From: Corallium rubrum
Lineage: Eukaryota > Cnidaria > Anthozoa > Scleralcyonacea > Coralliidae
Assembly (NCBI GenBank): GCA_964035015.1
Contig: CAXIUP010000130.1
Span: 62,001-126,000 of the forward strand
DNA: 64,000 bases
Direction: 5' to 3'
Shown here: positions 6,104 to 60,555 of the stretch, one piece after another
How positions within the stretch are numbered: the stretch's first letter is position 1
Layout of the letters: every line of letters begins with the position of its first letter
The notes under the pieces: model-generated
Told to the model about the DNA's origin: nothing
Database searches by the model: none
What the model saw: only the letters and a program-made list of their open reading frames with translations
Position numbers and translations under genes: made by a program

Positions 6104-6619
6104 TTATATATCTTCTTTTTTTGCCATGAGCTTGTCAATGGTCGTCTCGTCCATAATACTACGGGCGTCTGCTAATGCAAATCTCTTTGCTTGGTATTCG
6201 ACAGCAAGATCGCTGCTTCCCTCTTCAAGTGACTTTTTTACTGGCTCTATTTTTGGTACAAGAAGAACCGGCTTCCACCCTGGTCGGGCAGTTTTCCAGA
6301 ATCCTTTTTTCACGGTGATTTCCTTTGCAACAGAACATTGAATAAAATAAGTCTGTCCATTGACATTTGCGATAATGTCTGCACCTTCCATGTTGGGGGT
6401 AAAATAACAACAATTGCTGCTTGGTGTAAATAAGTCAAGTTTTTTCTGTGAAATGACGTCCCGTTTGCCGACCTTGAACTCCACTGTTTCTTCCTTGCCT
6501 TGGTACTCTGTTATCTTTAACGGTGATGATGAACACAACCGATGAAAGACAAGTTGTTCAAAGAAACTGCCTCGCAAAGGACCCAAATTACCGACACCCA
6601 TTGCGTTGACTAGATCGCA
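6104..6619 (-). CDS. NTPase gene exon G (C-terminal nuclease-like domain)
   Basis: Acceptor TTTTCCTTCAG, phase 0, 171 codons to TAA. It contains GSFFEQLVFHRL near the start and GADIIANVNGQTYFIQCSV midway, the spacing and residue types of the restriction-fold domain found in RHS/Crinkler proteins. It ends in a Lys-rich tail. Confidence 0.82.
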   Translation of the reverse strand, partial: CDLVNAMGVGNLGPLRGSFFEQLVFHRLCSSSPLKITEYQGKEETVEFKVGKRDVISQKKLDLFTPSSNCCYFTPNMEGADIIANVNGQTYFIQCSVAKEITVKKGFWKTARPGWKPVLLVPKIEPVKKSLEEGSSDLAVEYQAKRFALADARSIMDETTIDKLMAKKEDI

Positions 6620-9600
6620 CTGAAGGAAAAGAAAAGAAACGACTGAAAAACAATCAAGGCATCCCTAATTCTAGAAGTCGGATAAAGACGGGTGTTAGTA
6701 AAATGTGGATAGGTCGCCAATACCTCCGATAAGAACGATGACTGAAACAATGAATGCATTCCTCAAATGGTTTTGGTTGAAAGGTGGGCGTGTGGGCGGT
6801 TAATTCCTCAAATTCCTTTCCTTGTTTTGATTGTTGTTTAGATTGTTGACATTAAATTTATTTTCATGCCTGCATGTCGAAATGATTTCTGATCTTTTAT
6901 TGAGTAAAGTGTTTGTTTCGCCCGAAACGTTAGACCACTTACGTTCTGTTTCGGCAGTGTTTTGGAAAGATTTAGTGTGATTTCTGTATCGCTCTTTGAA
7001 ATTGTTTGTCATGCCAATGTAGTGTTTGGTGTTATGTCGCTTGTGGAAACAGTTGCTTTGTATACTATGCTATTTGTCAGGCACTGTCCATGAAGTGGGC
7101 ACTTGCTTTTATCCCTGCAGTTGCAACTGGCTGTGTTTTCATTTTGTACCCCGGTTTTTTTAAGTATGTGTGCGTTCTTCATGATTGTGGACTTGACGAT
7201 GTTCATTTATGGAGTTTGTTTTCTGGTGGGAAATGTTTGTCGATTAGGTTCAGAAAGCTGCGTCTTATGTTTGATCTTACATTTTTGTTGTAGGGTGGAT
7301 TGAACCAAATGATATTGCCATGTCGGTTTTTGCGTGGTTGTTGTGGATTTTGCTGTGTGTAATTTAATTCCTGATTGAAATTACTGTGTCTTAATGCATT
7401 TTGGTAAATGGGGCAGATCCCTTAAATGTTGTGTTGTCCGATGAGAGAAAACAAATGCGTTTGCTGATTGATGTTGGTAGCTGTTTTAAAATGCTAGGTG
7501 GGTGGTTTGATTGCTTGTTTATTTGATTTATTAAGCGAGGTCTGTACGGGAAAGTATTTGCCTGAGGTTTTCGTGCGATAAAACCGAGGGCAAATACTTT
7601 CCCGTACAGACCGAGCAAACGAAGTTAATAAGGAATTTATTATATGGCTATTGGTTCATTTTATTTTTAAGTTTCGAGCGTTGTTTTCGCCTTCGGAGCA
7701 TGCTGTTTACCTTAATACTTGTTAACGTTTGTACGTGTCGCTTCTTGGCCTTCTTGTTTACACCAGTTCGGCTTATATTGTCGTATTTTTCGATAAACAG
7801 CTTTAAAGAAAATCAGCAGTAATGTTCCAACACATTTTATTGTTCAGAATATTTGAATAAAGATACCCAGTACTCTTTTATTTGTATTCAAATCAACTCA
7901 GAAATCTTCTCGCCAAAACTTACAGGGCCGAGAAAAAAGCGTATTGACCCCGAGGTCAATATCGTAAAATCCCGACCTCTCGGGAACCAATCAGCGTGCG
8001 TCGTTTTGCGTACGGACCGGAAATCAAACCCAGCCATATAATAAATATATATATATATATTGTAATGTATGTAAATTATGTAAGGTAAAGCCTATAAAGG
8101 CCTAACCATGTGGCACGTAAGGGGCTAGCCCGGTTAACCAGGCTCACGCGATTGATTAGGATCTTACTGTAGTTTTAAAACTCGCATAAACTAAATATGC
8201 AAAGAAGAATTGGTTTAGTTTAGATGTAAACAAATCCTAACGATGATTAAAATCTCCTTTTGCGGCCAAGGAAAGAATTTAGCCCGCCTCATGTAAACAG
8301 CCCTTTAGTGAGATGTTATTGCATCTAATAAAGAACTGGACATTCTACAGTATGAACAGTCAGAAATCAAGCTAATTGCAAGGCATACATAACATGGTAA
8401 TTAATTACCGATACCCGCGAAGAACATTTTTGGCTATATCTTGGTCGCTTTTTAATATTTTCGAAAAAAAATTACGGCAATCGAGAGATTTCCAGTTTCT
8501 TAGTGTAAATCGATAAAATATGATGAAATCAGTGTTTTATCATATAATGTAACCTTAATTAAATCAAAGAACCACTAGATACAGTAATTTTTTAATTCGA
8601 CAACCAGACACTAAAAGGAAAAACGAGAGATTTGGAATGCTCTACCTATAACTTTACGCAAAGCTAGGCAGCGCTAAAATTTAATGCGAAATAATACTTT
8701 TTATTGTTGACAATTTCTCTCTATTAATATTTAATTCAGTATTTAACTTATTTATACCATATTCTTATTAGCTTGTAACCTAGTTTTAATTGAGGGACAC
8801 AAGTTTATCAATTATTTGTAAGGTGTCAATCATGTTTCAAAATTTTTGACTCCGCTAAATCTGTTTTCACTTAAACTTAAAGAAGCCTTACGCATCAATA
8901 GGCCTGATCATCACGAACTAGTCACGCTCCTAATAATCTTTGAATATCTTGTCGTGGTTTGTTGTTTTGAAGACATCGTTTATCTCAACAACACAATGAA
9001 ATTCTGAGAGAAGTATATTACTGGTCTTTCTCGACCCGTGAGTCCGCGGGCGCTATGCCTTTGAAATCAAGGCACGAGGGAAAACAAAAGTAATTTTGCT
9101 CTAATCGGTAAATGAGAAGGTGCGTTAACCGAAAGGATTTCGCTGCGAAGTTGCGAACGAAAGACAAGCGCTGGCGGATAATGACATTGGTTCAGGAACA
9201 ACATCATCATCATCATCTTTATTTAAAAAACAACAACACGGGTATCGCTTCAATTTACATGTAACGAAAAGCTGCAAGAAGCAAGAAATCTGTAAAGAAG
9301 CGTTCCTATCAGGTTTCTCTCATCATTTGATCGGGGAGAAAACATTATAAGGTAGAGTTGTGTCTGATTGGTTTACGGTCCAAGGGGGAAATGACAGAAA
9401 AGGGCAAAACCCCGCCAAATCTTTTATCCTCTTTTACAGAGAAAGAAATTTTGCCAATTCCCTCTACAAAAATAGATATCGGCGGCTTGCGTTTTATCCA
9501 ATTCTTTCCAAACTTTGCCACAATGTTGAACAACAGTAAAGGAATAAAACCGTGTTCGCATTTTAGATTTAGTGCAATATTTTCCCAATAATATGCATAT

Positions 9601-12600
9601 CTTCTATCGTTTTTACCAAATCAAGATGAGTCAACTTGCCTGCTTAATATCAAAGCAAATACTACCACAGGGAGCCCATCTTGGCAGCGCGTGGGCACCT
9701 GTGGCAGACTCGAAAGACGCGCGGGGGACTGTGGCAGGGGATTTAGAAAAACGAAAAACGGTTACCGGAAGCGGGAATAAGGCGGAAAAAAGGAAAAAAA
9801 CGGGGGGAAAGGGGGGAGGGAGAGGAAAAAATATAAGGGATGAAACACCAAACGTTCAACGTGGAATGTGTTCCGCAAGTAGCCACCGTTGGAATACTGA
9901 AAGCGACTGAAACTCAGAGTCAGATCAATGTGCAATAAATCAATAATCCTGAGACTTTCCGCTTTATCCGAAAGCTTCAACGATGATGTAGTGTCCTAGC
10001 TACTTGCGGAACACATCTCTCGAAAATACGATATGTAATTTAGCTGCAAAATCACGGCTAAAAGGTGAGATTTTGCCTCATTTTGATTATATTTTGATAA
10101 ATGAATCATTATCACAACTACTTCGCTCAATTGTCTTACAATTTTAATACCTATAGGCGCTTAAAACGATGTTCAAAACAAGGAAGAATTCGTGTTTCAT
10201 CGCTTTATTATTTTCCTAAACACACCACGATCGAGTGTGCCACAGGGTGCCCACGCTCTGCCAAAATGGGCTCCCTGTGATACTACCTGTCAAAAAATGC
10301 GAACACGGTTTTGGTCTTTGATCATTTGAGATGAGAAATGTGATGTTTTGGAAGCTTCTGAGTGAAACCAGAACCGCCGCTATCTCTTGGCGTTTAAGTG
10401 TGTAGAATTTTTGTTAAATTATTAGCTTCTGCAGTGATTTATCATTGTGCTTGCCAAATGTGAGAGACAAAACTCAAAAATTGAGCGCGCGGTGAGTATT
10501 TTGGTGAAATAAGATTCTATCCCTCGTAGAATCCATATTTCACTACATACGGGAACCGAGTGGCGTTATTTCTCGTATGTAACGCTCGCGAGTGACATAT
10601 CGACAAGTCAAAATTTACGCCTTAAGTTTCGAATCTAGTAAATTTGAGCCAGTAACTTCTCTTCATTCCGTTTATTAACGTAAAATGACGTATTCGAAGA
10701 AGCTGTCGTATTTTTCATTTGTATTTTCTAAAAGCTTTAGGTCAAGCGGTTGTAGTTTTTGCATTAAACTCAGTTTATCAACATCACTTCCGCGCATAAT
10801 TTCATTGTCCATATAACAAATAGAACATTACACGGTCGCTCAAAGATATGGATTTTATGTTCTCGTGGCAAGAGCAATATCTCACTCGTTCGCTGTGCTC
10901 ACTCGTGAGATATTGTCCTTGCCACTCGAACATAAAATCCATATCTTCTACATGTTGGATATTTCAACGAATCTTCTCAAACTCTTTAATAATTCATTAA
11001 TAATCCACGAGCCGAAAACAAAGGAAATATACCGAGACGGTGGTTTGGACAAATAAAATTTAGAAATTACATAAATTAAGCCAACTTTCGCCTCGATTTT
11101 CTCTTAAAATACTATTTGTTTGAGAAGCTATATCATACACTCGGAAGAGTGTTTCATCAGGATTCCAAACACTTCAAAATTTGTTCAAAAAGCTCGGCTT
11201 CGCCTCGGTTTTCAACAAAAGTCTCGGTGTTTGGATATACTCTTCCTCGTGTATGATATATTACATCCTTAACGATTAAAATTGAAAGAACAAACAAGGA
11301 TGAACTTACCACCTCCGTCATTAGAGACACATCGTTTCTCGTGAACTCGTTTATAACAAACTTGGCTTGTGGTGACACTGCCTCTATGTTGTGATCAGAT
11401 GTCATCTTGAGAAGGGTCCAAGGCAGCCGCTCGAGTACCAGCCCATACATGGGAGACAGGTTTTGCCGCGAAACACCAGAACCAATACAAATGGTCACGC
11501 ATTTGGCAAAAATATCTTTCTTATGCTCAGGGAATGATCCTCGGTCGGCTGCAAGCGCATCTCTAAACGACTCTTCTCGTGCACTTTTGAATTCCTTTAA
11601 TCGGGCAATGAATTCCTCATCCAGGTTTGTGTACCGCATCCAAGATGCGAGTTCGACCACTTCTCCCAGACGAAATCCAGTGTACTGTAACCACTTGTCT
11701 ACAGCTGTCTGCAATACAATTAATATATAAACAATAAGCTAAAGTTCCTCGAACTCACATTATCCATCAGAAATTAGATTTTGTGCACTCGATGCGATTT
11801 GACCAATCACGCGAGGGTGAAAAATTGTAGGGGTATGTATAGTACGTATTCCGTATAAGGAAACGCATACTGAATTTCTTCGTAGTCAGATTGTTTATAA
11901 TCCAGTAATACAATCGTTTTTAACACTAAAATCTTGCGCGAGTAGCGGCATGCAGGTGTTTATTAACTCTAGTTTCGTACGAGTTTAAAAAACCGGTTTA
12001 ATCGGGTTTTTTATATAAGGTAGTGGGACCTCCACCGGCGTTAAATTGTGGATAGGTTTTCGAGCATATTATATACAAACACGCGAGATGTACTAATGTG
12101 TAAACTATGGTGTTATTTAGACTTTAGTGGTGGATGTATGTAAAATGGGTGTGGCTTGAAGTATGTTGGAATAAAGACGAAGAGGTGTAGAATATTGTGT
12201 AAGTTTGTGTACTTTCCATTCACGCTTAACCCTCGACGCGTTCCGACCATCCAGTCTTCTTCAGGAGGGATTTCTCAAGTCAATGTTTCAGTATGTTGGT
12301 ATAAGGATATGTTGAGAGTAAGAAGGATGTGGATGTGTGTTAAAATTGCAATGAGTTGGTTTAGAGTAAAGTGTATAATAAAGGAATACACTAAAAAAAT
12401 AATAAAAATAAAATAGAATTGTGATCTCACTAAAAGTTGAGTTCCGCGGCAGCCCGCATCTTCTTGAGGCCATTGTTGTACTGATCTCTGTGTGTGGTTT
12501 TTTGCTCATCTATCCTTGTCAGGTGTTAGAGTTGAAAGACTTAATTTTGTTGAGTTAGTTGTGTTAATAGTCCTCCTTGTGTTTTGTGACATCATACGTT

Positions 12601-15600
12601 GAGGCGCGTGTGATTGGATTAGTCTCGTTTTACTGTTAAGCCCTAATCAAACGAGAACGCAAGTTATCGCAAGTTATCTTACTATGACTTGCGATGCCAC
12701 CAGTCAAACGTCGGCACAAGTCGTCGCAAGTTCTGCACTTCCGCTAGTTCCCACGCCTTCTCGCTAGTTCTCATGGTAGTTTCTATGGCGACGGGGCACG
12801 AAAGACTTGCATCAACTTGTGTTTTGTGTTTAAACGTTTCGCAAGCTCTCGCAAGTTGAAGAAAACTTGCAATGAAATTTGAACAAAATGAAATTAGTCG
12901 CAAGCTAACGCAAGTCACCGCAAGTCATCGCAAGCTGGCGGTCAAAAGGGACACAAGCAAGCACCAGCTAAAACTTGCGATCACTTGCGTTCTCGTTTGA
13001 TTAGGGCTTTAAGTTGTAAGTACGAGGGTAGGTTGGTGATCGTATTGTATGTCTAGTATAAGTTAGAGCAGTTAGGAGTAAGGCATTATCACAGACTCGC
13101 ATTGTTCCCTGTGTTATATATTGGTTGTATTTACCCGAACCGCCTCACACGAAATACGCTTTCCACAGATCGTAAAAGCAAACCCCTTCCAATAGGTTTG
13201 GCACTTTGCTTCGCTCCGCTCTCGCCCATTTAATAATAAACCTGGTGAAAATCTTTGTTCAACAACAAACCGAGATTCACCTAGCCTGCGAACCCAGACG
13301 TATTTCCCCACCCTTGTAGCCTCTCGCGGAAAATAGCCTGCGAACCCGAGCCAAGATTCGATTTCCGTGACGTATTACCTTTTATTTCGTGTTATCCAAT
13401 CAAATTGGACAACGTATTTAGCTAAAATTGCCCAAGCGTGGACACACGCTGAACGAAGCCAAGGAAGGAGCGCAAAATATTTGCAAGTATATTGTAGTAT
13501 AGTACTAAGTCTTTATATAACGATGAACGACACTCCAGTCCAAAGAAATACATCACGCCGATACTTGTTTCCTTTTTAAGAAAACATTTCAAAAAGTTTT
13601 TGGAGGTTCGATTAGCACTAAACAGATGTTGACCTCGACGCCGCTCAAGAAAGCTGAAACTCACCTTCACTAGTTCGAGCAGAGTGATCAAACGAAAGAG
13701 ACTAAAGTTAATCTTACCGTAGAATATCCAAGTAAAACATGACGAAAAGAACTGGTATAAATGACTTTGCGGTCCTCGGAAAAGCAATTGTTCACGGCTC
13801 TCATTAGAGAATTAGCCATTTCCCAAAAGAGCAGAGTACTGGGTTCGAGTTGAGACCGCAAAGCATGTTGTCGTCGTTTGGAAGGATTGAAGAGCGAGCA
13901 TAAAATATAAAAGATGCCTCATCATTATAATTGTTGCGTTCCAGGCTGCACGAATAGTTTTAGAAATGCACCACAACTGCATTATTGTAGGATTCCAAAG
14001 AACCAGGAGCACAGAAAAACATATGAACATATTCTAAGGAACAAAACACTTAAGAAGTCAGACGTCATTCAAGTTTGTTCGGCTCACTTCGAAGGAGGAG
14101 AAAAATTGAGTCGTAATCATTTACCTACGATATTTCCTTGGATCAATAAGACACCTAAAAGAGAACTCACACAACGTTCAGTTGAAGATGCGATAGCTTC
14201 ACCGAAGAAAAAGGCAAGATACGACACGGCATGTCGGCATCTTCTTAACTGGACAACAGTGCATTCTTCTACTGATTCCCGTGGAATTTTAGCTCGTGGA
14301 ATGTCTTCCTCACTCAGTGAAATACTTTCTGTTGATATGGACATTATTCATTTAATAAATTAGAGGACACCGACACTCTGACAGCTCATTTGTATTGCAG
14401 CCATTGTTGTCCTTCCAAACGTTCCCAACATGCTTTGCGGTCTCAACTCTAACCCAGTAACCTGCTCTTTTGGGAAATAGCTAATTACTAAAAAGCGGTA
14501 TTGAAGAATGACACGTTGAAAAAATGCGTCCTGGAAAATGTTTTGAAGCTTCTGATTTTGTGTGGTGGATATCACGTTTGGTGGACAGGTCAAGGCTGGG
14601 GACCATTACATGGCCCTACGCCTGTATCCAAGTAACCGAACAATGGCTGGAAACTCTTAAACATGTCTGCGCCTACAGTAAGTTAAATGAGGTTACTCAT
14701 AACCAAGATTAACAACAAAGAAACGCGCAGGGCATGGGGCGATAGCAAGTCTATTAAAGAGACGAGAACTCTCAGATGTACGCTCTGGAGAGCCAGCTTG
14801 ATAGAGCCGTTATTCTGCGTAGTCGATAACTAAAGAAGACAGCAAGAGAGGAAAATCTGTGCCCTCCATCCCACCCATTAATCTAACTTCCACCGAAATA
14901 ATCGTTGTGATCAGGTCAAGGCGGATCATTACATGGCCCTAGACCTGTATCCAAGTAACCGAACAACGGCTGGAAACTCTTAAACATGCATGTCTGCGCC
15001 TACAGTAACCATCCATACGGGTAAGTATAGTGACAGTAGGTGTTAATTGCAATTACGTACCATTGTCACAGAATAGGAAATGAACAGGCACTCGCGTCGG
15101 AACCTTTGAAGTTTCGTCCTCGCGCAGGTCGCCTCGTGCATCCCGGAAATTCGATGGACGCGATTACTCTGGCCAGAACTAGGTTATTAATTTTCATGGA
15201 CGTTAAACAGTCTTTTTTAAAAACCTTTGTTAATAGAATTTCTTTGTGATCCTTTTTGTTTTGTTTTGTTTGTTTTTTTTGGGTTTTTTTGGGGGGGTTT
15301 TGGGGGTTGTCTTTTTTTTTGGTGGGGGGGGGGGGGGGGGGGGGGGGGGGGGTGTGTTTGTTATGTTAGTTTTGTTTTGCCTTTTTTAACGTGCATATTT
15401 ATATGTGTATGTGTACATGTATATGCATTTGTGTATCTATATATATATTTAACAAATAGATTCCATTTTGCCGTTGTCTGTTCAGTTATAGATGCACAGA
15501 TGACGTCACAACGTGGTAAGAACAAAAAAGTGGCCCACGAGACGCAGTCGAGTGTCACTGATGTTCTTACCACGTTGTGACGTCTTCTGTGCATCTATAA

Positions 15601-15725
15601 CTGAGCAGACAACAAAAAAATGGAATCTATTTGTTTTATACAATATAAAAATTACACAATGCTTCTTGCCGGATTTTGGGGCATGAAGAAAGAAAAAAGC
15701 AAGTCAGCTGACGTGATCTGACGTC

Positions 15726-15795
<70 letters not shown>

Positions 15796-18700
15796 GTTAA
15801 AGTAGTCGTTTACAATAGACGACAGAGTGCTCGATACTTTTGAAGGGGAGAGATATCTTGAAGAGCAAGATAGATTTTATTTAAAAAATGAACGTTGCTA
15901 CTCCGAGTTTCACCTTAAGCGATCATCAGGCAACTGAAAAAGTTTCACTATAACTTCTGTTTATATTGCGTGGCACGCGTGAGATCGCGACACGTGACAT
16001 AGCCGCACGCGCGAGATTGCGTGGGATAAGTTTGAGCGGTTGTTCCCCGGATGTGCATCACTGTTCCTAGGGCGGCGGACGTTCCTAGCGTAAAATTTAT
16101 TTTCATGCCGGCATTTTGAAATTAGCTCCGATCGTTTGTTGAGCAGGCAATCTCTCAAACTTATCCCACGCAATCTCGCGCGTGCGGCGATGTCACGTGT
16201 GCCGCGCGCGATCTCACCAAACTTTTTCAGTTGCCTGATGATCGCTTAACGCGTGAAACTCGGAGTAGCAACGTTCATTTTTTAAATAAAATAATATATA
16301 TATATATATACTAGGGATAAATTTTTATAATATGTGTAAACTTTATAATAATTAAAGAATTTTATTATTATTATCATCATCGTGGTAAACATCAAATTGG
16401 TAACTTACCTTGTTGTCCTTATACATGCGCGGCAACAACTAAAAACATCGGAACAAAGTATTATTAATGTATTCAGTAGTGGTAGTACTACATACCGGTT
16501 AGGTTACGACACTTATTAAGTTCATAGCAGACTTAGCTAGCTACCCACAACTTACATTTTCCACTTTTTGTATTGCAATATCTTTTTGTGGATTTACCAC
16601 TATAATACGAAAGTCGCCACTGTTTAACTTGATTGGCGCTTCCATCAAGAACACGAGTCCAGCTCTCGAAGATGCAGCGACTACACGCAAGTTGGTATAG
16701 TGATTCTTTTGACATTAAAAAAAAAACACATTAAAAATAGACTATAAAAATTACCACTGTTTAAGGTGGCTCCCATCGGTAATTTCTATAGGGGACTGGT
16801 GACTAGAAATAGTATCGCTACGCATGCGTAAATAGCGATCTTGTCGTTTCGAAATTCTATGACCGCGTCGACATGGATGTTAGACTTGTAGACGTTTTCT
16901 TCGGTGAATTTTGGTAAAATTTTGTAAATAAGTAGTTTATAAGAATTTCTAAAGTATATAGAATTTTTTAAAAATTTCATAAGACAGAACTTTTTTAAAT
17001 CGATAATCATGCGAAAAATCTGTCCCTACAACCTACCTTCATTTTTTGCATGGATATTCCCTGCAACAATATCTATCATCTCAGCAAATTTTAAGAAAAT
17101 TCACCGAAGCAAACGGAAGACATGCCGCTTCAATTATGCAATATTTGAAAATATACAAAAGTCCAACGTCATTATTACTATGGTAACAGCAAATAATTGA
17201 ACTTTTTGAGAAATATTTTAAATCTGCGATAGTTCTGCTATAGTAAGGTCTACCTACAATCATTGACAAAATTAGTTGAAACGACTCGAGTGAATCATGC
17301 CATGTTAATTGCTAGGTCTTTTTTTTTTGCATAAATTGCTATCCCCCCGTCCCCCCTTTTCAATGTTGATACTCTGAACATTTAAATGTAATGGCAGGTG
17401 ACTGAGTGCAAATTGCAAACGTTTTGAATTCCACAACATTAAAGTGGGGGGAAGGGGGGACATGAAACCATTTCATGTTAGCTTTGTTTCAAGAATTATG
17501 TCAATGATTGTAGTATTTATCTAACAAATGTTTTAAACTTATGAATAACATTAGATAACGAGCGTATGAAATTGCGCGCATTTATTTAAACTAATAGGGA
17601 GCCACCTTAAAGTGACAAGATTCTTCCATCAACTGTACCAACTGAATACAAATCATTCATCAATGCCAACCACACAAGAAGAAAGTCAAACTTCAAATTA
17701 CCGGTTGCTTCACATACGTGCGAATAATCCTCTCCGCATATTCGTGTCCTTTTGCCAACTGAACGTTATCAATAAATAACCATTGATAATCACCACTTTT
17801 GGTATCTGATTAAAATTGGGAAACAAACGTTTTGCAAAAAAGACTTGTTACAAACTTCTTCACTTGAGTAATTGAGCATTCAGATTTCAAGTTTTAAACG
17901 AAACAAAATATTTAAAGTAGTTACCTTCTCTGAACTTCGTAACCTTCTGCTCGAAGATAACCCAAGATACGTCACTGAAGTCCTAAAAAGCCAGCAACTT
18001 AATTTGTTAATATGTAACTCTAAAAAGCTTTGCTCTTCCCATGTTCAACACTTCGCCCAGATAGAAGTGAAAGTTATATAGTGTTTATATATAGTATAGG
18101 GACAAACTGCGACTCGGAATTGCAAGCTCATCTTTTTCTACTATAATTTTGTTACAAGTTTTTAACTAGATCCCAAGGATAGTGCAAAGTTTCTATAGTC
18201 AAAGATAATAACAATTTTTGCCACGTGTACAGACAGAGCTGCCAGCCCCAACCTCGTACCCAGGGCATTTTTGCTTCGTGGAGGCCGCCTGCCAGCCCAT
18301 TTTCTTAATCTGGATGGATTCTTAAAGAGTCATTTTCTCTTCAAAGAACGCAAAAAAAATTACAAACTCCGACAAACATGAATGCTGACGTCTTTTGTGC
18401 GCTTCACTATTGTTTTCCGGTCTGTTTAATAACATCAAAATCTTTTTAAACTCCTCGAAAAAAGCTTGGCGCATCACAAGAATTCCAATACTAATACGTA
18501 TCGTGTGACGTCCACTCGATCCAGATCAAAATTGACTAAAATTTGTCAAGTGGACAAAGGATCGCCTGATGATTATGTTGCTAGCTTCATAGCCTTGCGA
18601 ATCGTCTGCCCAATCACGCGTTAAGTTCACGCAGGTACAGATACATGTAGAACTTTCTTTTACTATATGGCCAGGGTTCTTCGTACAGTTGCTTATTGAA

Positions 18701-20810
18701 CGCCAAATCAAAATGCGAAGACAGTCTACAATCTCCAGTATACAGAATTTGTTACTGAGCTGACGTGCAAAACTGCTCGAGCGCCACTCGTATAAAATAT
18801 AACAGACACGAACAAGCAGACCATAAATCCTTTCGCCCAGACCATATTTAATTAGCCATGCACTTACGCCTAGAAATTCGTTGTTTCGAGAAGAAAATTG
18901 ATCACTCCTTTGCGTTTCTCCGTCATTGTTGTATTCGCCAGTCGCAAACAAAACCATGCGTGCGCAGTGGTATTCTAATATATTCGGGGGGAAACTTCTT
19001 TCATTCCTGGTATATTAAGATCTTTCAAGAACTTCGCTGTTTATATGGCTTATGAGCTTTAAGCGACATAAATATTTGTCGTCTACTAGTGTTTCACATT
19101 TTCACTGGTTTTAGCATTTCAACTACGACAAGTGTGTATGTCGTTAACCTGTAAACCTGGTAAGTTTACCCCCGGAAAGTTTACACTATCTGAGTGGCGA
19201 AAATTCACGATACATACATAACACAATACTGCAAAGTTTCTGTGAAACTTTGCACTATTAGACGTCAGGAGAATACACTGCAAAAATAAAGAAGCCTATA
19301 TCAAGTATGGCTACATTTGTCGTTGTTCTGCGTTTTTTGATATGTCGAGTTTTGACGATTTTATTGACGACCAAAGTTAAAAATGCTGTTTTTCGACCAA
19401 CATTCCCACAAAATAAGTCATAAATTCGAAACCAGGCAATAAATAAAAAAACGCTGACACCGTTTTGCTGGACATTATCTCGGAATCGAACTGCGAACAT
19501 TTGTTTTCGCCTCAAGTGAGTCCCTCTGGTTTTAATTAAAAAATTCACAACTATTAACGGTTTGTGTTTATCGCGAAACCAAAGACCATTGTATTCTACA
19601 AATTCATAGCTTTCTAACGATATCTATTTTATTTTTGTGGCATAAATTCCAATGTATTGAGAGCGCTTTACAGAAATTAACGAAGACCTTAAAGGGATAC
19701 TCCAGGCCTAAACAAATCTTGTTCAAATGAAAGACCTATGTGACTTCACCTCCAAATGGGGAGAAATTTGACTTTGTTTGCCGTATTTTTCCATATACTG
19801 TGAGCCGCCAATGTTGCTTGATTGCGGGCGAAAGCGGGCACAAGAAAAATATAACTTACATAATATAAACTTCCTTTCTTTTCCTTCTTATATGTCTCAT
19901 ACAGCTGATACAGAAGGGTGGTCTTTCCTACTCCCTTTGACCCTATCATAAAAGAAAGCAGATTAAAAAGCTGGGGGTGCGGGAGGCAGCAGGTCACTCC
20001 TAGACGTTTTCTGAGAATGTTGAGTTGTAAAGCCATGAACAAACCTCCAAAACAGCGCCCATATGATCTTGCAACAAGTTTATGTCCCCCTAACGTTCCC
20101 TCCCTGCATGAACCACCTACAGGTAGCTCATCTAACTCGTTCCTGCGTATACGCGCATCCATGAGGCTCTCTCCTCCGCATGCAGAGGTACTTTCGGAGA
20201 TCGGATATTTCGGGGATCGTCGGAGATGTGTCAAAATCGTCAGCTGGACATAAGGAGTGCGGGTATAGCGAAAGAGAAAGACAAAAAAGAACCTCTGCCA
20301 GATTTCTGTGTCAATATGGCGGCACCAGGGGGGTGTCAACTGTGGGTTTGTAGAAAACATGTCGAATATAGCAGAATGTTAATTGAATGTGTGGACAAAC
20401 TAGGAAAGTTCGTTATTTCAATGTGAGCTACACGTCGGTCGATATAAGTATGTTATCCTCGGGTTCGTCAGCCTTCGTCTGATATATTGGACGGAAAAAC
20501 TGAGTATATTTTGTCTTTTTTACAAAAAAGACATATTATAAAGATGTCATAATCACTGAGAGTCCTCAGGCTTTTCTACCGAGACAAGAGTCCTTTCCCC
20601 CCTGGGAAGGCACATACCTGCTTTCTTTGGAGAGCCACACCTCCCCCAGGGTAAAAACTCAATGCATGCCCATCATTTCATGTGTGAGCTTTTCTGTGAG
20701 CTTTTGAACTTACCAACCAAACAAATGGCCTTGTAATAAGATGGAACGTTCATGCGTGCCTTAATTTCCGCATAGATCTGAGGTTCCAGAAACTGTGCCC
20801 CTGCAGAAGG
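6104..20810 (-). CDS. Crinkler/RHS-like P-loop NTPase with C-terminal nuclease-like domain (7 exons, 5' end missing)
   Basis: Join on the minus strand: 20810-20714, 19942-19860, 17982-17925, 17805-17702, 16705-16556, 11708-11310, 6619-6104. Every boundary has AG/GT and all phases close, giving 468 codons plus stop without interruption. In order I see a pre-P-loop segment, Walker A (GSKGVGKTTLL, about residues 33-43), a hydrophobic Walker B-like strand WLFIDNVQ (about 86-93), a sensor-like LRVVAASS strand, an alpha-helical middle region with YTGFRLGEV, then a GSFFEQLVFHRL motif and a GADII...YFIQCSV core. In the CR/RHS class of eukaryotic effectors an AAA/STAND-like NTPase precedes a restriction-endonuclease-fold domain with this G..FE...H..L and D...Q.(T/S)V pattern; that assignment is from knowledge of the family. 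Upstream exons with the start codon are not found before the retrotransposon at 21.9 kb. Function is unknown. The family is the inference; the exon chain is seen directly. Confidence 0.72.
6800..7320 (-). pseudogene. Penelope-like element 3' relic (GIY-YIG endonuclease)
   Basis: Read on the minus strand in shifting frames, the fragment gives FNPPYNKNVRSNI, LIDKHFPPENKLHK, CNCRDKSKCPLHGQCL, then KHYIGMTNNFKERYRNHTKSF and LNKRSEIISTCRHENKF. These are the linker, Cys/His motif, GIY-YIG core and C-terminus of Penelope-like retroelements. The region between the core and the C-terminus is deleted and the frames are broken, so it is dead. It lies inside the 4.7-kb intron between exons F and G. Confidence 0.8.
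7539..7612. repeat. Short palindrome
   Basis: The arms GGTCTGTACGGGAAAGTATT (7539-7558) and its complement ending at 7612 match over 24 bp around a loop of about 26 bp. Probably a foldback relic. Confidence 0.8.
8041..9300. other. Intronic sequence, nothing recognised
   Basis: Apart from an 18-bp AT run at the left and a short CAT repeat near 9205, I see no coding, RNA or clear repeat structure. Confidence 0.5.
9665..10280. mobile_element. Foldback MITE with about 42-bp TIRs
   Basis: The left end (9665-9706, CCACAGGGAGCCCATCTTGG...) and the right end (10238-10280) are inverted copies with few mismatches. A second inner pair, CTACTTGCGGAACACAT and its complement, lies at about 9864 and 9995. 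Outside the element, AAAACCGTGTTCGCATTT (9546) is mirrored at 10303-10318, which suggests a third, outer palindrome. Confidence 0.8.
10844..10947. repeat. Long hairpin with about 42-bp arms
   Basis: AGATATGGATTTTATGTTCT... at the left is mirrored at the right with only small differences, separated by about 20 bp. Non-coding foldback in an intron. Confidence 0.88.
11126..11262. repeat. Foldback repeat (TATATCATACAC ends)
   Basis: GCTATATCATACACTCGGAAGAG is mirrored by CTCTTCCTCGTGTATGATATA. The interior pairs partly (CCAAACAC/GTGTTTGG). A related copy with the same flank (TAAATTAAGCCAACTTT...) lies at 40290-40500, so this is a dispersed family. Confidence 0.75.
11310..11708 (-). CDS. NTPase gene exon F (helical middle region)
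   Basis: Acceptor TGTATTGCAG, donor GAGGTG|GTAAGT. It holds 133 uninterrupted codons in phase 0. The start TAVDKWLQYTGFRLGEVVEL resembles the winged-helix/lid segment after the NTPase core in CR/RHS proteins. The end ...AKFVINEF...SLMTEV leads into the nuclease-like exon. Confidence 0.82.
12640..13008. mobile_element. TTAA-flanked MITE (GCCCTAATC ends)
   Basis: The ends GCCCTAATCAAACGAGAACG and CGTTCTCGTTTGATTAGGGC are perfect inverted copies over 25 bp, next to TTAA on the left and TTTAA on the right. The interior is full of CTTGCGA/TCGCAAG words. The TTAA flank suggests mobilisation by a piggyBac-type transposase; this is inference. Confidence 0.75.
13810..14486 (+). mobile_element. TIR element encoding a stand-alone THAP domain
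   Basis: About 80-bp terminal inverted repeats (13810-13890 and 14404-14486) share AATTAG(C/T)(C/T)ATTTCCC, AAAAGAGCAG, GAGTTGAGACCGCAAAGCAT and CGTTTGGAAGGA. They enclose only the THAP ORF. THAP is the DNA-binding domain of P-element transposases, which fits a P-like non-autonomous or accessory element. No clear target duplication is seen. It sits in the E-F intron of the NTPase gene, on the opposite strand. Confidence 0.75.
13914..14363 (+). CDS. THAP-domain zinc-finger protein, 149 aa
   Basis: A single-exon ORF starting about 25 bp inside the left TIR. The N-terminus MPHHYNCCVPGCTNS, followed by ...YCRIPKN, ...VCSAHFEGG and LPTIFPW, is the C2CH THAP pattern (C-x4-C ... C-x2-H, Cys10/Cys15 and Cys61/His64, with the downstream P-T-x-F box). 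The THAP fold covers residues 1 to about 81. The remaining 68 residues have a basic KKK patch and no RNase H-like or coiled-coil domain. AATAAA overlaps the stop codon. It probably binds the element's own TIRs or host sites. Confidence 0.85.
   Translation: MPHHYNCCVPGCTNSFRNAPQLHYCRIPKNQEHRKTYEHILRNKTLKKSDVIQVCSAHFEGGEKLSRNHLPTIFPWINKTPKRELTQRSVEDAIASPKKKARYDTACRHLLNWTTVHSSTDSRGILARGMSSSLSEILSVDMDIIHLIN
15249..15365. repeat. T-rich to poly-G low-complexity tract
   Basis: TTTTGTTTTG repeats pass into a run of more than 25 G. The length of the G run is probably unreliable in the assembly. Confidence 0.95.
15451..15635. mobile_element. Palindromic MITE with about 72-bp arms
   Basis: AACAAATAGATTCCATTTTG at the left is mirrored at 15616-15635, and pairing continues through GACGTCACAACGTGGTAAGAAC to a loop of about 40 bp. 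Immediately upstream is the poly-G tract. Confidence 0.88.
15725..15795. repeat. AT dinucleotide microsatellite
   Basis: A TA run of about 70 bp. Confidence 0.97.
15875..16291. mobile_element. Nested long palindrome (foldback element)
   Basis: The outer arms TTTTATTTAAAAAATGAACG... and their complement (16225-16291) pair over about 70 bp, including CGGAGTAGCAACGTTC and GATGATCGCTTAA. Inner arms carry CACGCGTGAGATCGCG, GCGAGATTGCGTGGGATAAG and their complements. Penelope-like C-terminal codons lie in the loop. Confidence 0.88.
16085..16155 (-). pseudogene. Penelope-like C-terminal fragment
   Basis: The minus strand reads CLLNKRSELISKCRHENKFY, the conserved C-terminal motif of Penelope-like proteins and nearly identical to the motif in the relic at 6.85 kb. 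Only this short piece survives, trapped in the loop of a palindrome. Confidence 0.65.
16556..16705 (-). CDS. NTPase gene exon E (sensor strand)
   Basis: Acceptor TGTCAAAAG (weak, after a T run), donor AAAAT|GTAAGT. Exactly 50 codons, phase 0 at both ends. It contains LRVVAASSRAGLVFLMEAP, consistent with the strand and Ser/Thr sensor after Walker B in AAA/STAND-like NTPases. Confidence 0.75.
16765..17606. mobile_element. TTAA-flanked MITE (GGTGGCTCCC ends) in the D-E intron
   Basis: TTAA|GGTGGCTCCC at 16761 is mirrored by GGGAGCCACC|TTAA ending at 17610. The 842-bp interior is non-coding. At 17341-17460 it holds a poly-C...CAATGTTGA / ACATT...poly-G hairpin like those at 34.2, 50.4 and 51.9 kb. 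Confidence 0.75.
17702..17805 (-). CDS. NTPase gene exon D (Walker B-like)
   Basis: Acceptor TTTTAATCAG, donor CAACCG|GTAATT. It encodes the hydrophobic strand and acidic residue WLFIDNVQ, followed by a helix (AKGHEYAERIIRTY). It ends in phase 0. The intron to exon C is only 119 bp. Confidence 0.8.
17925..17982 (-). CDS. NTPase gene exon C
   Basis: Acceptor GGCTTTTTAG, donor AGAAG|GTAACT. The 58-bp exon encodes DFSDVSWVIFEQKVTKFRE plus one base. That base joins the first two of exon D to make Asp. Confidence 0.75.
18246..18310. repeat. Fragment related to the 34.4-34.9 kb MITE end
   Basis: CCCAACCTCGTACCCAGGGCATTTTTGCTTCGTGGAGG closely resembles the CAACCTCGTCCCCAGGGC... terminus of the element at 34387-34906. 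Only one end is visible here. Confidence 0.5.
19860..19942 (-). CDS. NTPase gene exon B (Walker A)
   Basis: Acceptor TTTTATGATAG, donor TTAT|GTAAGT. The first two bases complete the split Gly codon from exon A. It encodes SKGVGKTTLLYQLYETYKK..., a textbook Walker A followed by an amphipathic helix. It ends in phase 0. Confidence 0.85.
20714..20810 (-). CDS. NTPase gene exon A (pre-P-loop)
   Basis: The acceptor is a T-rich tract then CAG, the donor G|GTAAGT. The exon starts in phase 0 and ends with one base over. It encodes 32 codons ending ...YYKAICLV plus the first base of the Gly that opens the P-loop. There is no start-like context, so earlier exons are expected. Confidence 0.8.
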
Positions 20811-21666: not shown

Positions 21667-21890
21667 CTAAGCAAATCTAGCATTACGAAGAAGAATGTTT
21701 TTGTTCAAAAAGAAGTTTTCGAGTGCTGTCATTATGTTCTGTGCTGTCAGCGAAGCGCCAACTACTTTGCTGATGGGGATCAACCCGATGAAATGCTCGG
21801 AAATTATGTTGTTGATACAAAAAGTCGCGTACACAGCAAATTGTTCGACTGAAGTGACGTCCGTTGTTTCATCACTATGCATGCAGGACA
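21667..21890 (-). pseudogene. hAT transposase relic (DUF4371-like), split by BEL insertion
   Basis: The minus strand encodes ...CMHSDETTDVTSVEQFAVYA...ISEHFIGL..., the D-E-(S/T)-T-D motif and following strand of hAT transposases of the ZMYM/DUF4371 type. The upstream half continues in frame beyond the retrotransposon, on the far side at about 27978-28060. It is a truncated relic used as insertion target. Confidence 0.65.
21886..21890. other. Target site duplication GGACA (5' copy)
   Basis: GGACA directly precedes the 5' LTR and is repeated at 27973-27977 after the 3' LTR. Five bp is the usual BEL/Pao length. Confidence 0.9.
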
Positions 21891-22076
21891 TGTTGAAAAC
21901 GTGATCGGACACGTGACAGTGATTTTACTGTTTATTTACAAAACTGGTTTTTCCAGTTTTGATCACATGATTAGTATATAATTTTGTACATATTTTATAA
22001 ATAAATCAGTTGATATTGTAAATTTCGATCGAGTGTTTTATCTATTCGTAAGCTAGAAAATTTACTGTTTTCTAAA
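21891..22076 (+). repeat. 5' LTR (186 bp)
   Basis: Starts TGTTGAAAACGTG and ends TTTTCTAAA; by eye identical to 27787-27972. It contains TATATAA and AATAAA-like signals. Confidence 0.92.
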
Positions 22077-22094
22077 TGGCGCCCAACGTGGGGC
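22077..22094 (+). other. Primer-binding site
   Basis: TGGCGCCCAACGTGGGGC starts right after the 5' LTR, the expected place for a tRNA primer site. I did not assign the tRNA. Confidence 0.75.
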
Positions 22095-22167
22095 TGAGAT
22101 CGTAAACGACTAAACGAGAGACGAATAATACGAGAGGCGAATATACGAGATTATACGAGTAAACGAC

Positions 22168-23409
22168 ATGTCGACTTCGAAGATCGAAAGACTCAAGGCG
22201 ATCAGAGGAGCCCATCGAGGAGTATGCACAAAACTAGAAAGGGAGACGAGCGATTTAATATCACAAGAACCCACTGAGGAAATAACAAGCCGACTCGAGG
22301 TTATTAGCTGTTTACTGGAAGGGAAACAAAAGACCCTCAGTGATATCGACGAACAAATCACTTCATTGTGCGATTTAAACGACATCACAAAAGAAATCGA
22401 AGATTCCGAGTCAATCGTAGCCAGGATTATCGAATGCCGAAAGAAGATCAAAGATGCGAAACCAGTCGTTATTAGCAGTGGTCAACAACCTACCATTTAT
22501 GTTCAGTCGGATACAACTCAAAGTCATACAAGCAACGTCGTCAAACCACGTCTACCAAAATTATCTCTACCGAAGTTCAAAGGCGATGTAACGAAGTGGA
22601 CCTCATTTTGGGACTCGTTTAACAATGCAATTCATTTGAACAGTGATATATCCCCAATCGACAAGTTCAACTATTTAAACGCTCAACTCGAAGGCAACGC
22701 CGCGAGAGCTATTCAAGGTTTAACTCTCACAAGTGCAAATTACACCGACGCCATTAAAATGTTGCAAGAACGTTTTGGCAAACCACAAATCATCATATCA
22801 GCGCACATGGATGAAATCCTAAAAATTCAAGCCAGCACTGATGGTCGACTATCTTCACTACGATATGTGTACGACAGAATCAGCGTAAACGCGAGAGGTT
22901 TGGCATCACTTGGTGTGTCATCTGATCAATATGGAAGTCTTTTAGTACCTATTATCATGTCTAAACTTCCCAGTGATGTAAGACTGCAAATCGCTCGTAA
23001 GAACACCAACGAAATTTGGAAAATAGACGACCTTCTCGAAGCCATCAAATTCGAAATCGACGCCCGAGAATCTAACGAAGGGACAAAAACAAGTGGTATT
23101 GACAACCGCAAGCCTTCAGGTAACAACAAAGGTCATATGCCGCTCGGTGGCAGCGCTTTGTTTACAAAAACAACAGGGTCAGGGGAGTTTAAGATTCGTT
23201 GTGCCTTCTGTAGTGGTTTACATTATTCTGCATCCTGTGAAGTTGTGACTGCCTACCAAAGTCGAAAGGAAATCCTCGCAAAACACGGTCGGTGTTATAA
23301 TTGTCTTCGAAAGGGGCATCACTTGAAAGATTGCACAAGCGAAAGGAACTGTAGACATTGTAGGCTAACAAACGTCATCATCAATCAATCTGCGACAAGG
23401 TTCATGTAA
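22168..23409 (+). CDS. BEL/Pao Gag
   Basis: 413 codons from the first ATG after the leader. An N-terminal coiled-coil-rich region is followed by a capsid-like DUF1759 region (LPKLSLPKFKGDVTKWTSFW, about residues 130-150) and a zinc knuckle CYNCLRKGHHLKDC (about 376-389), with a second knuckle beginning CRHC. The frame leaves the expected second knuckle just after CRHC. A -1 frame continues with matching knuckle residues (ANKRHHQSIC) into pol. The stop at 23407 therefore looks secondary. Packages the element RNA in virus-like particles. Confidence 0.9.
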   Translation: MSTSKIERLKAIRGAHRGVCTKLERETSDLISQEPTEEITSRLEVISCLLEGKQKTLSDIDEQITSLCDLNDITKEIEDSESIVARIIECRKKIKDAKPVVISSGQQPTIYVQSDTTQSHTSNVVKPRLPKLSLPKFKGDVTKWTSFWDSFNNAIHLNSDISPIDKFNYLNAQLEGNAARAIQGLTLTSANYTDAIKMLQERFGKPQIIISAHMDEILKIQASTDGRLSSLRYVYDRISVNARGLASLGVSSDQYGSLLVPIIMSKLPSDVRLQIARKNTNEIWKIDDLLEAIKFEIDARESNEGTKTSGIDNRKPSGNNKGHMPLGGSALFTKTTGSGEFKIRCAFCSGLHYSASCEVVTAYQSRKEILAKHGRCYNCLRKGHHLKDCTSERNCRHCRLTNVIINQSATRFM

Positions 23410-23414
23410 AGAAG

Positions 23415-25124
23415 TTGGAAGAAACTCCGACACAAGTCTCAAGTGACACCACAACAAGTGAAACAGTTACTACAACTACTACGAGCAACACAGCTGGAAA
23501 GAAACGACATGGAGTGCTTTTGCAAACAGCCCGAGCTATTGCTCTTGATGAAACCGGAGACGTTTCTGTTTCTGTCCGAATTCTCCTTGATAACGGAAGT
23601 CAGCGCTCATATTTAACAGATAATTTGCGTTCCAAGTTAAAATTGAAGTCTGTTCAGCGCGAGAAACTCAATATCAATACATTTGGTGAGAATCGTTTCA
23701 AGACACAGAAGAGCGACCTGGTCCACCTACGACTCCAACGACCTGGAAACCCTGAAACAATTGATATTTCTGCATTAACTTTTCCAGTTATATGCTCAGC
23801 CTTGCCTTTGAGAGTGAATCTCGATGACCACCCTCACCTTCAAGATTTAGACTTGGCCGAGGACTTTGACAATGACAACCACGATACAATCGATGTACTC
23901 ATTGGTTCCGATTACTATTGGGACATTGTTTCGAGTGAATCTGTTCGAGGAGAGTCAGGTCCCACTGCCGTAAATAGTAAATTGGGTTGGCTTGTTTCTG
24001 GTCCAACAGATTCATCAACACCCTACAACAATGCCTCCACCACCAACTTGATTATTTCTGGTGCACCACCTCCCTGTCAATTCGAAACCGATGATGAAGT
24101 AGTGGCTGTGTTAAGAAGATTTGGGGAAACCGACAGTATCGGCATAAGAGATGATAAAGATCTTGAAGAGAAATTCAATGGTCAACCATCGTTATCAGTG
24201 AACCAAAGTAAACAACCTGTCTTCGAAGAAAGTGATGGTCGTTACGAAGTGGGTTTGCCCTGGATAGAAGATTATTCACCATCTTCGACCAACTACCGAA
24301 TGTGTGAAAACCGGTTGAAGTCCTTACACCACAAGCTGAAAAACGAGCCAAACCTGCTTCGCGATTATGATGAAATCGTCAAAGATCAACTACAAAAGGG
24401 GATAGTTGAAAGGGTCCTAGGACCGATCAGTGATGCAACTGAAGAGAAGTCGAAGGGAGTTCATTATTCACCTCACCATGCGGTAGTCCGAAAAAATCGT
24501 GAGACAACAAAGGTTCGAGTCGTGTATGATGGATCAGCCAAGTATTCAAAAGAAGAGCGATCTTTGAATGATTGCTTAGAAGTCGGTGAAAATTACATCC
24601 CTCATGTTTTTGATCAACTAACGAAGTTTCGATGGAACGCGATCGGTCTCACTGGTGACATAGAGAAAGCTTTTTTAATGGTGGGTATCAAGCCAGTCGA
24701 CAGAGACATGCTCCGTTTCTTGTGGTATGAAGACCCATTTTCCTCGAAGCCCGAAATAGCAGTATATCGTTTTAACCGACTTGTGTTTGGCCTACGACCA
24801 TCGCCTTCGATCTTAGGTGCAACGATAGAGCATCATTTACGTTTGTTTAAACAAAGCGAGCCTGAGATGGTAGAATTATTGGAGAAGTCTTTATACGTGG
24901 ATGATTTGATCACTGGAGAGGAGAATGAAGAGAAAGCCTTCAACGTGTACAAGAAATCAAAGGAAATAATGGCAAAGGGTGGATTCAACCTTCGCAAATG
25001 GAATTCGAACTCGCACAGGTTGTTGAAGTCTATCGAGAATTATGAAACCTTGCACGAGCACGCCAAATCAACATCGAATGTCACAACCGAAGATGACGAG
25101 TCATATGCAAAATCATCGAATTAA
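23415..25124 (+). CDS. BEL/Pao Pol, part 1: protease and reverse transcriptase
   Basis: The open frame extends upstream of the displayed ATG into the gag knuckle, so gag-pol was one frame. Aspartic protease with ILLDNGSQRSYL (about residues 56-67), then the reverse transcriptase with TKVRVVYDGSAKYS, LTGDIEKAFLMV and YVDDL (about 493-497). The frame ends at a premature TAA after ...ESYAK. The reading continues one frame back in the next ORF, with an A4 run at the break. Confidence 0.92.
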   Translation: MEETPTQVSSDTTTSETVTTTTTSNTAGKKRHGVLLQTARAIALDETGDVSVSVRILLDNGSQRSYLTDNLRSKLKLKSVQREKLNINTFGENRFKTQKSDLVHLRLQRPGNPETIDISALTFPVICSALPLRVNLDDHPHLQDLDLAEDFDNDNHDTIDVLIGSDYYWDIVSSESVRGESGPTAVNSKLGWLVSGPTDSSTPYNNASTTNLIISGAPPPCQFETDDEVVAVLRRFGETDSIGIRDDKDLEEKFNGQPSLSVNQSKQPVFEESDGRYEVGLPWIEDYSPSSTNYRMCENRLKSLHHKLKNEPNLLRDYDEIVKDQLQKGIVERVLGPISDATEEKSKGVHYSPHHAVVRKNRETTKVRVVYDGSAKYSKEERSLNDCLEVGENYIPHVFDQLTKFRWNAIGLTGDIEKAFLMVGIKPVDRDMLRFLWYEDPFSSKPEIAVYRFNRLVFGLRPSPSILGATIEHHLRLFKQSEPEMVELLEKSLYVDDLITGEENEEKAFNVYKKSKEIMAKGGFNLRKWNSNSHRLLKSIENYETLHEHAKSTSNVTTEDDESYAKSSN

Positions 25125-27730: not shown

Positions 27731-27775
27731 ATTGTGTTTGAATTTCTTGTTAAAGTTTATCACTAGAGTGAATAA

Positions 27776-27786
27776 ACTTTGGGGAG
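27776..27786 (+). other. Polypurine tract-like segment
   Basis: ACTTTGGGGAG ends immediately at the 3' LTR. Purine-rich only in its second half, but in the correct place for plus-strand priming. Confidence 0.55.
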
Positions 27787-27972
27787 TGTTGAAAACGTGA
27801 TCGGACACGTGACAGTGATTTTACTGTTTATTTACAAAACTGGTTTTTCCAGTTTTGATCACATGATTAGTATATAATTTTGTACATATTTTATAAATAA
27901 ATCAGTTGATATTGTAAATTTCGATCGAGTGTTTTATCTATTCGTAAGCTAGAAAATTTACTGTTTTCTAAA
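27787..27972 (+). repeat. 3' LTR (186 bp)
   Basis: Matches the 5' LTR base for base by eye and is followed by the GGACA duplication at 27973-27977. Confidence 0.92.
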
Positions 27973-28392: not shown

Positions 28393-28681
28393 CAACGATA
28401 TTGATGTTGCTTGAGGTATTTACAAATGTTTTGATTTGTACTATGAAATGCATAGATCCCTCTCATTTATACCAGGAAATATTATACTATTTTGTCTCCG
28501 GGGGGGGGGGGGGGGCAGTAGGGAAGGTTAAATTCCACAAAAATATGAGAACTCAAAACGGCATAATCCCCGAGCCCAGGCGTAGGGCCAAAGGCCCGGA
28601 GCCCGGTGAGGGTGCTAATCTCGACATGCGTGGAGTCCATTTTACACGCGAGATGAAAAGCTGAAAGTAATTCTGAAACCT

Positions 28682-28685
<4 letters not shown>

Positions 28686-32235: not shown

Positions 32236-32283
32236 CTCTTGAGTCTCATTAACTTCACTACTCTGACTGGTGCTGGCATCCAT
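32236..32283 (-). CDS. Candidate first coding exon (left-arm copy)
   Basis: ATG in good context, 16 codons (MDASTSQSSEVNETQE), then donor GAG|GTATGC. The counterpart in the right arm at 60508-60555 is conserved. The next exon would lie beyond the Helitron boundary and is not found, so the gene is truncated in both arms. Confidence 0.3.
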
Positions 32284-59585: not shown

Positions 59586-60507
59586 GATGGCTGCACGAGT
59601 ATGACGTAAGTGCGGTTCAAGACACTCGCGCAAGCAAGCAACACGCCGACATTATGGCTACCGCTGACAGGTCAGCGGTAGTCACAAAAAAAAAGTCCTG
59701 TTTATATAACAAATTGTTATGAAAATCCACCATATTAATTTTTAAAATTTATATCCTGCGGACCAGCTGACATGTTAAAACATAATATTCTTCGCAATAC
59801 AGTATAAAAACAAACTCCTGGTATAGGTTATATGAAATAATTATATAGACAGAGTAAAATAATAAACTAAACAAAGAGTTCGACAAATATGTAGAGGTGT
59901 TCAACACTGCCTTATACAGCACTCTACTTTTTTATAATTTCACATACCTGAATCTGTATCCTGTGCAAAAATTATGAATGACGATTAATTGTATTCTCTA
60001 CCAACAAAAGTATATACTTTAGAAGACGTCCATATTTAGAAGTCACGTGTACATATATACCGTATATGGTAGGGGCTCTGTATGTGTCTGGCTCACGATT
60101 TTACCAAACCACTCTATGGCGTTGTAAATGGCCGATCACGAACCGTAAGTGCAGTATTAATTTCGAGTTTTACTATAAACCGATTCGTTTTAAACCATGG
60201 TGAAATGGTGATATCTTTGATACTGAATAGTTTTAGTTTCTTACTGGAACTGTTGTGAACTGAACTTAACTTAACTGAAGAGTTCTTCCAAGAACTGTTT
60301 CGTTAATGGCAAATAATGAGAACCGTGTAAAGATTTACAGTGTATACTTGTGTTTTGAAAAACCTTGGAGAAGCAATGAAGTAATACTGATGGTTGATGA
60401 AAAATCGAAGGGCCGCCTGGCCATGCTCCTTTTATACCAGAACTTTTTGTAATCAATGTGGTTCTTTTTTTTTCTTTTACTCGTCAAGGAGACATAAAAG
60501 AGGGAAA

Positions 60508-60555
60508 ATGGATGCCAGCACCAGTCAGAGTAGTGAAGTTAATGAGACTCAAGAG
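60508..60555 (+). CDS. Candidate first coding exon (right-arm copy)
   Basis: AAAATGGATG start context, 16 codons (MDASTSQSSEVNETQE), donor GAG|GTATGC. The mirrored copy at 32236-32283 is the same. The downstream side is occupied by a Helitron starting at 60754, so the rest of the gene is lost or distant. Confidence 0.3.

Follow-up and report, generated by a model that had tools for sequence, protein, structure and literature searches.

The window analysed here (64,000 nucleotides, C145:62001-126000) contains on its minus strand a coral gene predicted to encode a P-loop NTPase followed by a putative nuclease-like domain. The gene belongs to a recently amplified family of more than 12 copies. 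Their coding parts have diverged at many times the rate of the intervening DNA, as is typical of an evolutionary arms race, and this divergence pattern needs selection for amino-acid change.

Exon layout and copies of the gene

The gene consists of nine coding exons, eight of them (E1-E8) within 20810-6104 and a start exon (E0) at 32283-32236; with E0 it spans 26.2 kb and comprises 494 codons. A sequence-only reading of this DNA had joined seven minus-strand exons in phase over the 20810-6104 span. The exons and their joining held, with canonical AG/GT borders, the phase kept and a frame open throughout the 1437 nt of E1-E8 up to the TAA stop at 6104; the count had to be raised to eight in this span plus the ninth upstream, and the 30-bp exon at 16438-16409 may be the one absent from it. 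The features of the gene and of its surroundings were the following:

E0, 32236..32283, minus strand: start exon, from ATG to GAG followed by gtatgc, 16 codons (MDASTSQSSEVNETQE), ending in phase 0
E1, 20714..20810, minus strand: beginning of the NTPase domain, preceded by ttcag and followed by gtaagt, phase 0 in and 1 out
E2, 19860..19942, minus strand: Walker A, GSKGVGKTTLL
E3, 17925..17982, minus strand: the exon with the highest pN of all
E4, 17702..17805, minus strand: Walker B-like QWLFIDNVQLAKGH, with an invariant core
E5, 16556..16705, minus strand: sensor-1-like strand LRVVAASSRAG, with a counterpart exon in the old C1 paralog
E6, 16409..16438, minus strand: 30 bp, preceded by gtttttag and followed by gtaagt, in phase, readable in 12 copies including the window
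E7, 11310..11708, minus strand: 133 aa, mostly helical, with a possible winged-helix end
E8, 6104..6619, minus strand: C-terminal nuclease-like domain with conserved E, D and QC[ST], ending in TAA
BEL/Pao retroelement, 21890..27972: in the intron between E0 and E1, with ORFs at 22129-27730 on the plus strand
Second gene copy, E0 region, 60371..60640, plus strand: divergent and pointing out of the window; match at C145:122371-122640

The sequence-only reading had advised looking for the start exon upstream of 21 kb and beyond 28 kb; it lies 5' of the BEL/Pao element. It was spotted as a hypervariable patch in the divergence profile between the window and the C38b copy, because the exons of this NTPase-nuclease-like family show as divergence patches between copies. 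E0 could be aligned in 14 copies, 13 of them in frame and the C37B copy with a 4-bp deletion, and it lies upstream of most other copies in the matching orientation; phase, order and orientation together suggest that it is spliced to E1. Met20 of E1 was also considered as an internal start and dropped, because the residues ahead of it vary by in-frame indels and substitutions next to an intron that is almost constant: among copies, E1 has 3-bp indels and changes inside, and its 50-bp flanks are unchanged or carry one change.

The genome searched was a 474-Mb assembly of 312 contigs, and the copy counts obtained from it are lower bounds. The search with E8 gave 21 matches from 22 candidates: 16 places were complete (stop-free, with the AG acceptor at the same place and TAA), and the remaining five matches corresponded to four broken or distant copies. 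The search with E1-E7 gave 79 matches. E1-E8 were read fully in 11 copies (the window, C37A, B, D, E, F, H and I, C96, C38b and C12), all of which had kept their splice sites and were free of stops, with indel lengths always divisible by three. Left out of this set were C37G (no E5 match), C38a (E6 not found in the stretch read), C38c (no E8 match), C38d (part copy) and C37C, its C96 counterpart and C37J (no E7 match nearby). For E0, nine of the 11 copies were in frame; C37B carried the 4-bp deletion, and C37A gave a 59-bp part match beside the exon. The earlier statement that the gene has no indels thus applies to the window copy and not to the family, in which exons carry in-frame indels of 3-9 bp and E0 of C37B its deletion.

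The array copies lie in both orientations. C145, C96 and C38 could represent other haplotypes of the C37 arrays, in which case some copies may be alleles and a single locus would be highly polymorphic. Broken copies were found at C12:1043 kb, C12:1075 kb, C38:50 kb and C1:79.17 Mb, besides C37B in its start exon. An old paralog (L048, C1:79167900-79171900) has exons matching E4, E5, E7 and E8, with the frame of the last exon broken. Three near-identical fragments of an older paralog (L045, L046 and L047) lie on C12, C37 and C38; all have E7, E8 is broken in L045 and L047, and L046 has a masked stretch. The other exons of the second gene copy in the window were not found on C145; its E0 is carried by an imperfect inverted repeat (window 56391-63062 against 28426-34219). 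Proximity to telomeres found no support, as neither TTAGGG nor CCCTAA occurs in the initial 1500 bp of C37 or in the terminal 800 bp at the two ends of C145.

Exon-confined divergence and selection

When the window copy was compared with C37I, 100 of 912 bases differed in E1-E7 against 117 of 13406 outside (Fisher p about 8e-62), and outside the exons 60-bp windows with at least six differences were found only in the low-complexity stretch 15270-15389. The 771-bp intron between E1 and E2 showed 72 mismatches in 27720 positions (0.26%; 36 pairs of nine copies). Around E7, in 13 copies, there were no mismatches in 8445 comparisons from -150 to -20 upstream, 35/1320 in the last 20 bp before the exon, 6.5-13% inside it, 0/3366 in the first 51 bp after it and 74/6534 thereafter; C37H was dropped from the upstream and C38a from the downstream part of this profile, where an indel adjoins the exon. 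A similar step occurred at the E8 border, from 0-1.3% in the preceding 500 bp to 5-16% inside. The value of 4% at 1000-500 bp upstream of E8 was traced to a single copy (L019) without homology there. As a control, a 375-bp kinase/SAM exon of the same arrays was read in six copies: it differed in 35 of 5625 comparisons (0.6%), and its immediate flanks at 0.5-0.8%, like the exon. Values of 10-36% further away from it reflect homology lost in copies, mainly C12, and upstream in C96 and C37_422; where the kinase-region copies align, 9-21 bases differ from the window in 2.5-3.7 kb. Great age of the whole duplication was rejected on the 0.6% of this co-duplicated exon and the low silent divergence of E7 (see below). 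These results indicated that the block is young and that, of the two genes read, only the exons of the NTPase-nuclease-like gene ran ahead.

Over the 55 pairs of the 11 fully read copies, pN in the coding sequence was 0.096 and pS 0.032 (pN/pS 3.04), with pN exceeding pS in 55/55 pairs, at Fisher p<0.05 in 50 and p<0.001 in 34; these pairs are not independent, and both the pairwise and the column counts are tree-free. By exon, pN/pS was 4.1 in E7, 3.5 in E8, 3.5 in E4, 2.6 in E3 and about 1 in E2 and E5, and infinite in E1 and E6, which had zero silent change. Among 208 polymorphic codon columns, 198 were amino-acid-changing and 10 silent (binomial p<1e-12 for 10 or fewer silent). A codon model gave an omega of 6.2 (lnL -4435.0 free against -4492.5 at omega 1, 2dlnL about 115), with 10.8 for E7, 5.9 for E8 and 3.0 for E1-E6, each beating omega 1; these tree-based values are only approximate because exon types reassort or recombine between copies. 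In the E8 comparison (13 copies, three of the 16 being left out as duplicates), L017 and L022 differed by 71.5 non-synonymous and 1.5 synonymous changes, with three differences in the 600 bp upstream. The selection suggested by the sequence-only reading is thus far stronger than one copy could show.

Silent sites in amino-acid-identical codons differed by 0.9% in E7 and 7.5% in E5, with an average of 2.1%. The E7 value is near the intron level, and most of the signal is accordingly what positive selection acting on young duplicates would give. The E5 value and the average suggest that certain exon lineages predate the introns, through conversion homogenising the introns or exchange of exons. 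Exon pS (3.2%) exceeds the intron divergence (0.26%), which may reflect older exon lineages or another process adding change. Exon types were found to be mosaic among 14 copies: for example, the E3 type of C37F is that of C96, and the E1 type of C37E is that of C12.

Variation spares the motifs. Of the 482 aligned residues, 204 are variable in the set of 11 copies, but the Walker A motif, the block resembling Walker B and the sensor-like strand are invariant, TPNMEGADIIAN and YFIQCSVAKEITVKKGFWKTA are unchanged, and TPNMEGAD and YFIQCS in E8 show no variation; in two further E8 copies, L016 and L017, a few residues are changed after QCS. The putative catalytic core is kept as other positions change.

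Protein domains and closest known systems

The P-loop NTPase proposed earlier was supported: the joined E1-E8 protein matched Pfam AAA_14 (PF13173) over residues 27-132 (E=1.6e-11, 44.7 bits, cut-off 27), a match of about 106 residues covering the P-loop part only, and the C12 copy matched it with 40.9 bits (E=2.4e-10). PADLOC gave PDC-S01 at 4.9e-7 in the P-loop region only, a PDB profile search with the whole protein gave weak P-loop matches (DnaA, E=0.007; LRRK2, E about 0.9), and NCBIfam yielded nothing beyond weak P-loop matches that fell far short of the cut-off. For the C-terminal half, E7 had no match among the profiles searched, E8 had none in the PDB profile search, and the one profile to match E8, phage Ndd, stayed far below threshold (14.3 bits against a cut-off of 25). 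The NTPase and the C-terminal region were not placed in unrelated families by the profile searches. The viral and prokaryote contigs scanned contained no relative.

The main group of E8 sequences carries a glutamate in GSxFE, an aspartate in EGAD and QCS, and the E, D and QC[ST] residues are also kept in paralogs about 35-38% identical. We take this E...D...QC[ST] set to resemble the site of PD-(D/E)xK restriction-type nucleases and, considering also the known architecture, we propose that E8 may be a nuclease domain of restriction fold. Structure prediction, which the sequence-only reading had recommended, gave single-sequence AlphaFold2 models of low confidence for E8 (pLDDT 32.1) and E7 (41.6), the latter with a helix-hairpin-helix at its end; E7 would be a helical linker, possibly of winged-helix/HTH type.

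The assignment of the protein to the Crinkler/RHS proteins found no support. PF07999 (RHSP) had no genome match at E<=10, in a search where introns cut the model, and it was absent among the best 25 of 26 Pfam matches for the joined protein. The N-terminal Crinkler/Ubl header with LxLFLAK, PF20147, had no genome match at E<=1. As the control genomes gave no match to either profile, the absence of both is unproven. The N-terminus is a 16-residue hydrophilic tail, and not a header, with the NTPase directly after it.

Crinkler-RHS-type (CR) proteins reportedly were surveyed across eukaryotes by Zhang et al. in 2016. They include a group with NTPase, HTH and REase C-termini, according to the part of the source available (PMC5289972). 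The coral gene is like this CR-type group in the order of its parts (P-loop NTPase, helical linker, nuclease-like end), and both form an expanded conflict-type gene family. Unlike CR-type proteins, it gave no PF20147 header or PF07999 match, and it is a nine-exon animal gene whose copies are under extreme diversifying selection. Its NTPase domain matches the AAA_14 ATPases of Pfam, and its C-terminal half is unlike any profile searched. In those parts of the Crinkler/CR-protein literature that were available, no such animal family was described, and the 2016 survey may mention animal members.

The SpTransformer (185/333) immune genes of the sea urchin are also clustered, expanded and of mosaic types, and they differ, as far as the available part of the source goes, in having two exons, with variable exon 2 and distinct intron types (PMC8634487); the coral family has introns with almost no divergence, and its changes are distributed across the exons. 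The small serum protein genes of the habu likewise show accelerated amino-acid change: in the part of the source available, KA/KS is 1.7 and 1.5, and intron KN 0.065 and 0.049, for the two closest pairs (PMC6609765). They encode vertebrate serum proteins, and their intron contrast is far weaker. There are thus precedents for clustered mosaic immune genes and for coding change exceeding that of introns, and the coral contrast is much larger.

Possible roles of the family and its neighbourhood

We tentatively propose, giving it slightly less than an even chance, that the family acts in intracellular defence against viruses or mobile DNA, through a protein of about 494 residues made of a tail, an AAA_14-type P-loop NTPase, a helical linker and a nuclease-like domain. 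ATP binding or hydrolysis would gate nucleic-acid cleavage by the C-terminal domain, and the fast-changing surfaces around the frozen catalytic core would serve to recognise a co-evolving partner or to escape it. This partner would most likely be a virus, a mobile element or one of their inhibitors. Diversifying selection alone cannot separate defence from a selfish element or from allorecognition. We rank defence first and a toxin-antidote driver second. In the latter, a selfish family of gamete or embryo killers, each copy would encode a nuclease-like poison, with immunity through matching variants, and copies would amplify and diversify by mutation and conversion. Such a driver would fit the amplified arrays in both orientations, the mosaic exon types and the extreme amino-acid diversification with frozen motifs; however, neither an antidote isoform nor a partner gene was identified, the co-duplicated receptor-kinase-like gene is not diversified in the exon read, the spliced genes are long (26 kb) and older diverged paralogs are present, and we consider it unlikely. 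A special process confining change to exons, for instance gene conversion with spliced cDNA of diverged copies as the template, the amino-acid changes then being retained by selection, seems improbable to us. Divergence does stop no more than about 20 bp away from the exon borders (0/8445 and 0/3366), exon types are common to copies in differing combinations, and among 4754 amino-acid-differing codon comparisons 1013 were two-position and 186 three-position changes. Against this, silent divergence in E7 is close to that of the introns, so that ordinary positive selection acting on young copies accounts for most of the pattern; exons of 30-58 bp are poor templates, and change also occurs beside the exons, in the last 20 bp before E7.

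We give little credence to a recognition system, either of self/non-self (allorecognition-like) or polymorphic in a general sense, that uses the same protein. C96 resembles an alternative haplotype of C37 177-249 kb (copy spacing 75.4 against 72.3 kb), and its copy differs from that of C37 by about 35 non-synonymous and 4 synonymous changes (Fisher p=0.053, for this pair alone), but the allelism of C96 and C37 is deduced from spacing and similarity only, and the architecture is NTPase/nuclease-like with a hydrophilic N-terminus. This N-terminus, MDASTSQSSEVNETQE and then at once the NTPase, together with the Crinkler header not having been found, also makes unlikely, indeed a poor prospect, a secreted or injected effector or venom-type protein, as thought for oomycete Crinklers; accelerated coding-region change is seen in snake venom toxins, according to the part of the source available (PMC2711939). 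Decay of duplicates or relaxed constraint is very improbable: a few copies are broken, those listed above, but an omega far above 1, intact E1-E8 frames in 11/11 copies and frozen motifs contradict relaxed constraint for the main group.

Somewhat less firmly than the defence reading itself, we hold that this animal has a polymorphic, mosaic repertoire of ATP-dependent nuclease-like proteins with exon-confined diversification, which would be either an innate equivalent of the NTPase-nuclease defence of prokaryotes or a set of selfish killers. Should these proteins prove to be ATP-gated nucleases, a restriction-like enzyme family would be at work in an animal, in an arms race still under way; this role is known from prokaryotes and oomycete effectors. 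The family also constitutes a natural experiment: in the same blocks the exons have changed by about 10%, and the introns and the neighbouring kinase exon by well under 1%, so that the strength, target and source of the diversifying selection are directly testable.

The BEL/Pao element has long open frames, the last of which matched Pao peptidase, integrase zinc-finger and DUF5641. Its flanks, 21890 and 27972, adjoin directly in C37I and C12; since these copies are empty at the same place, the element was inserted after the duplication. C38b is missing both the element and about 1 kb of flank. A receptor-kinase-like gene is represented at 40730-47351 on the plus strand by tyrosine-kinase-like and SAM exons; at six places the SAM exon has been duplicated together with the NTPase gene, with 99-100% identity, and a gag-like ORF (DUF1759) lies on the minus strand between the kinase-like and SAM exons. 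This gene and a GFP-like exon elsewhere in the assembly, whose closest PDB entries are red and green fluorescent proteins including DRFP583, agree with the animal origin proposed from the sequence and fit an anthozoan-like animal, DRFP583 and similar fluorescent proteins presumably coming from anthozoans. At 35615-37464 on the plus strand, a DDE_Tnp_1_7 transposase, which we take to be of piggyBac type, is split over two overlapping frames. An ORF antisense in the intron between E6 and E7 (13911-14363, plus strand) presumably resembles a THAP zinc-finger protein. Finally, 7535-8044 (positions 1432-1941 of a 2001-bp probe) is a dispersed repeat, found at more than 20 places among the matches listed, with 90-96% identity.
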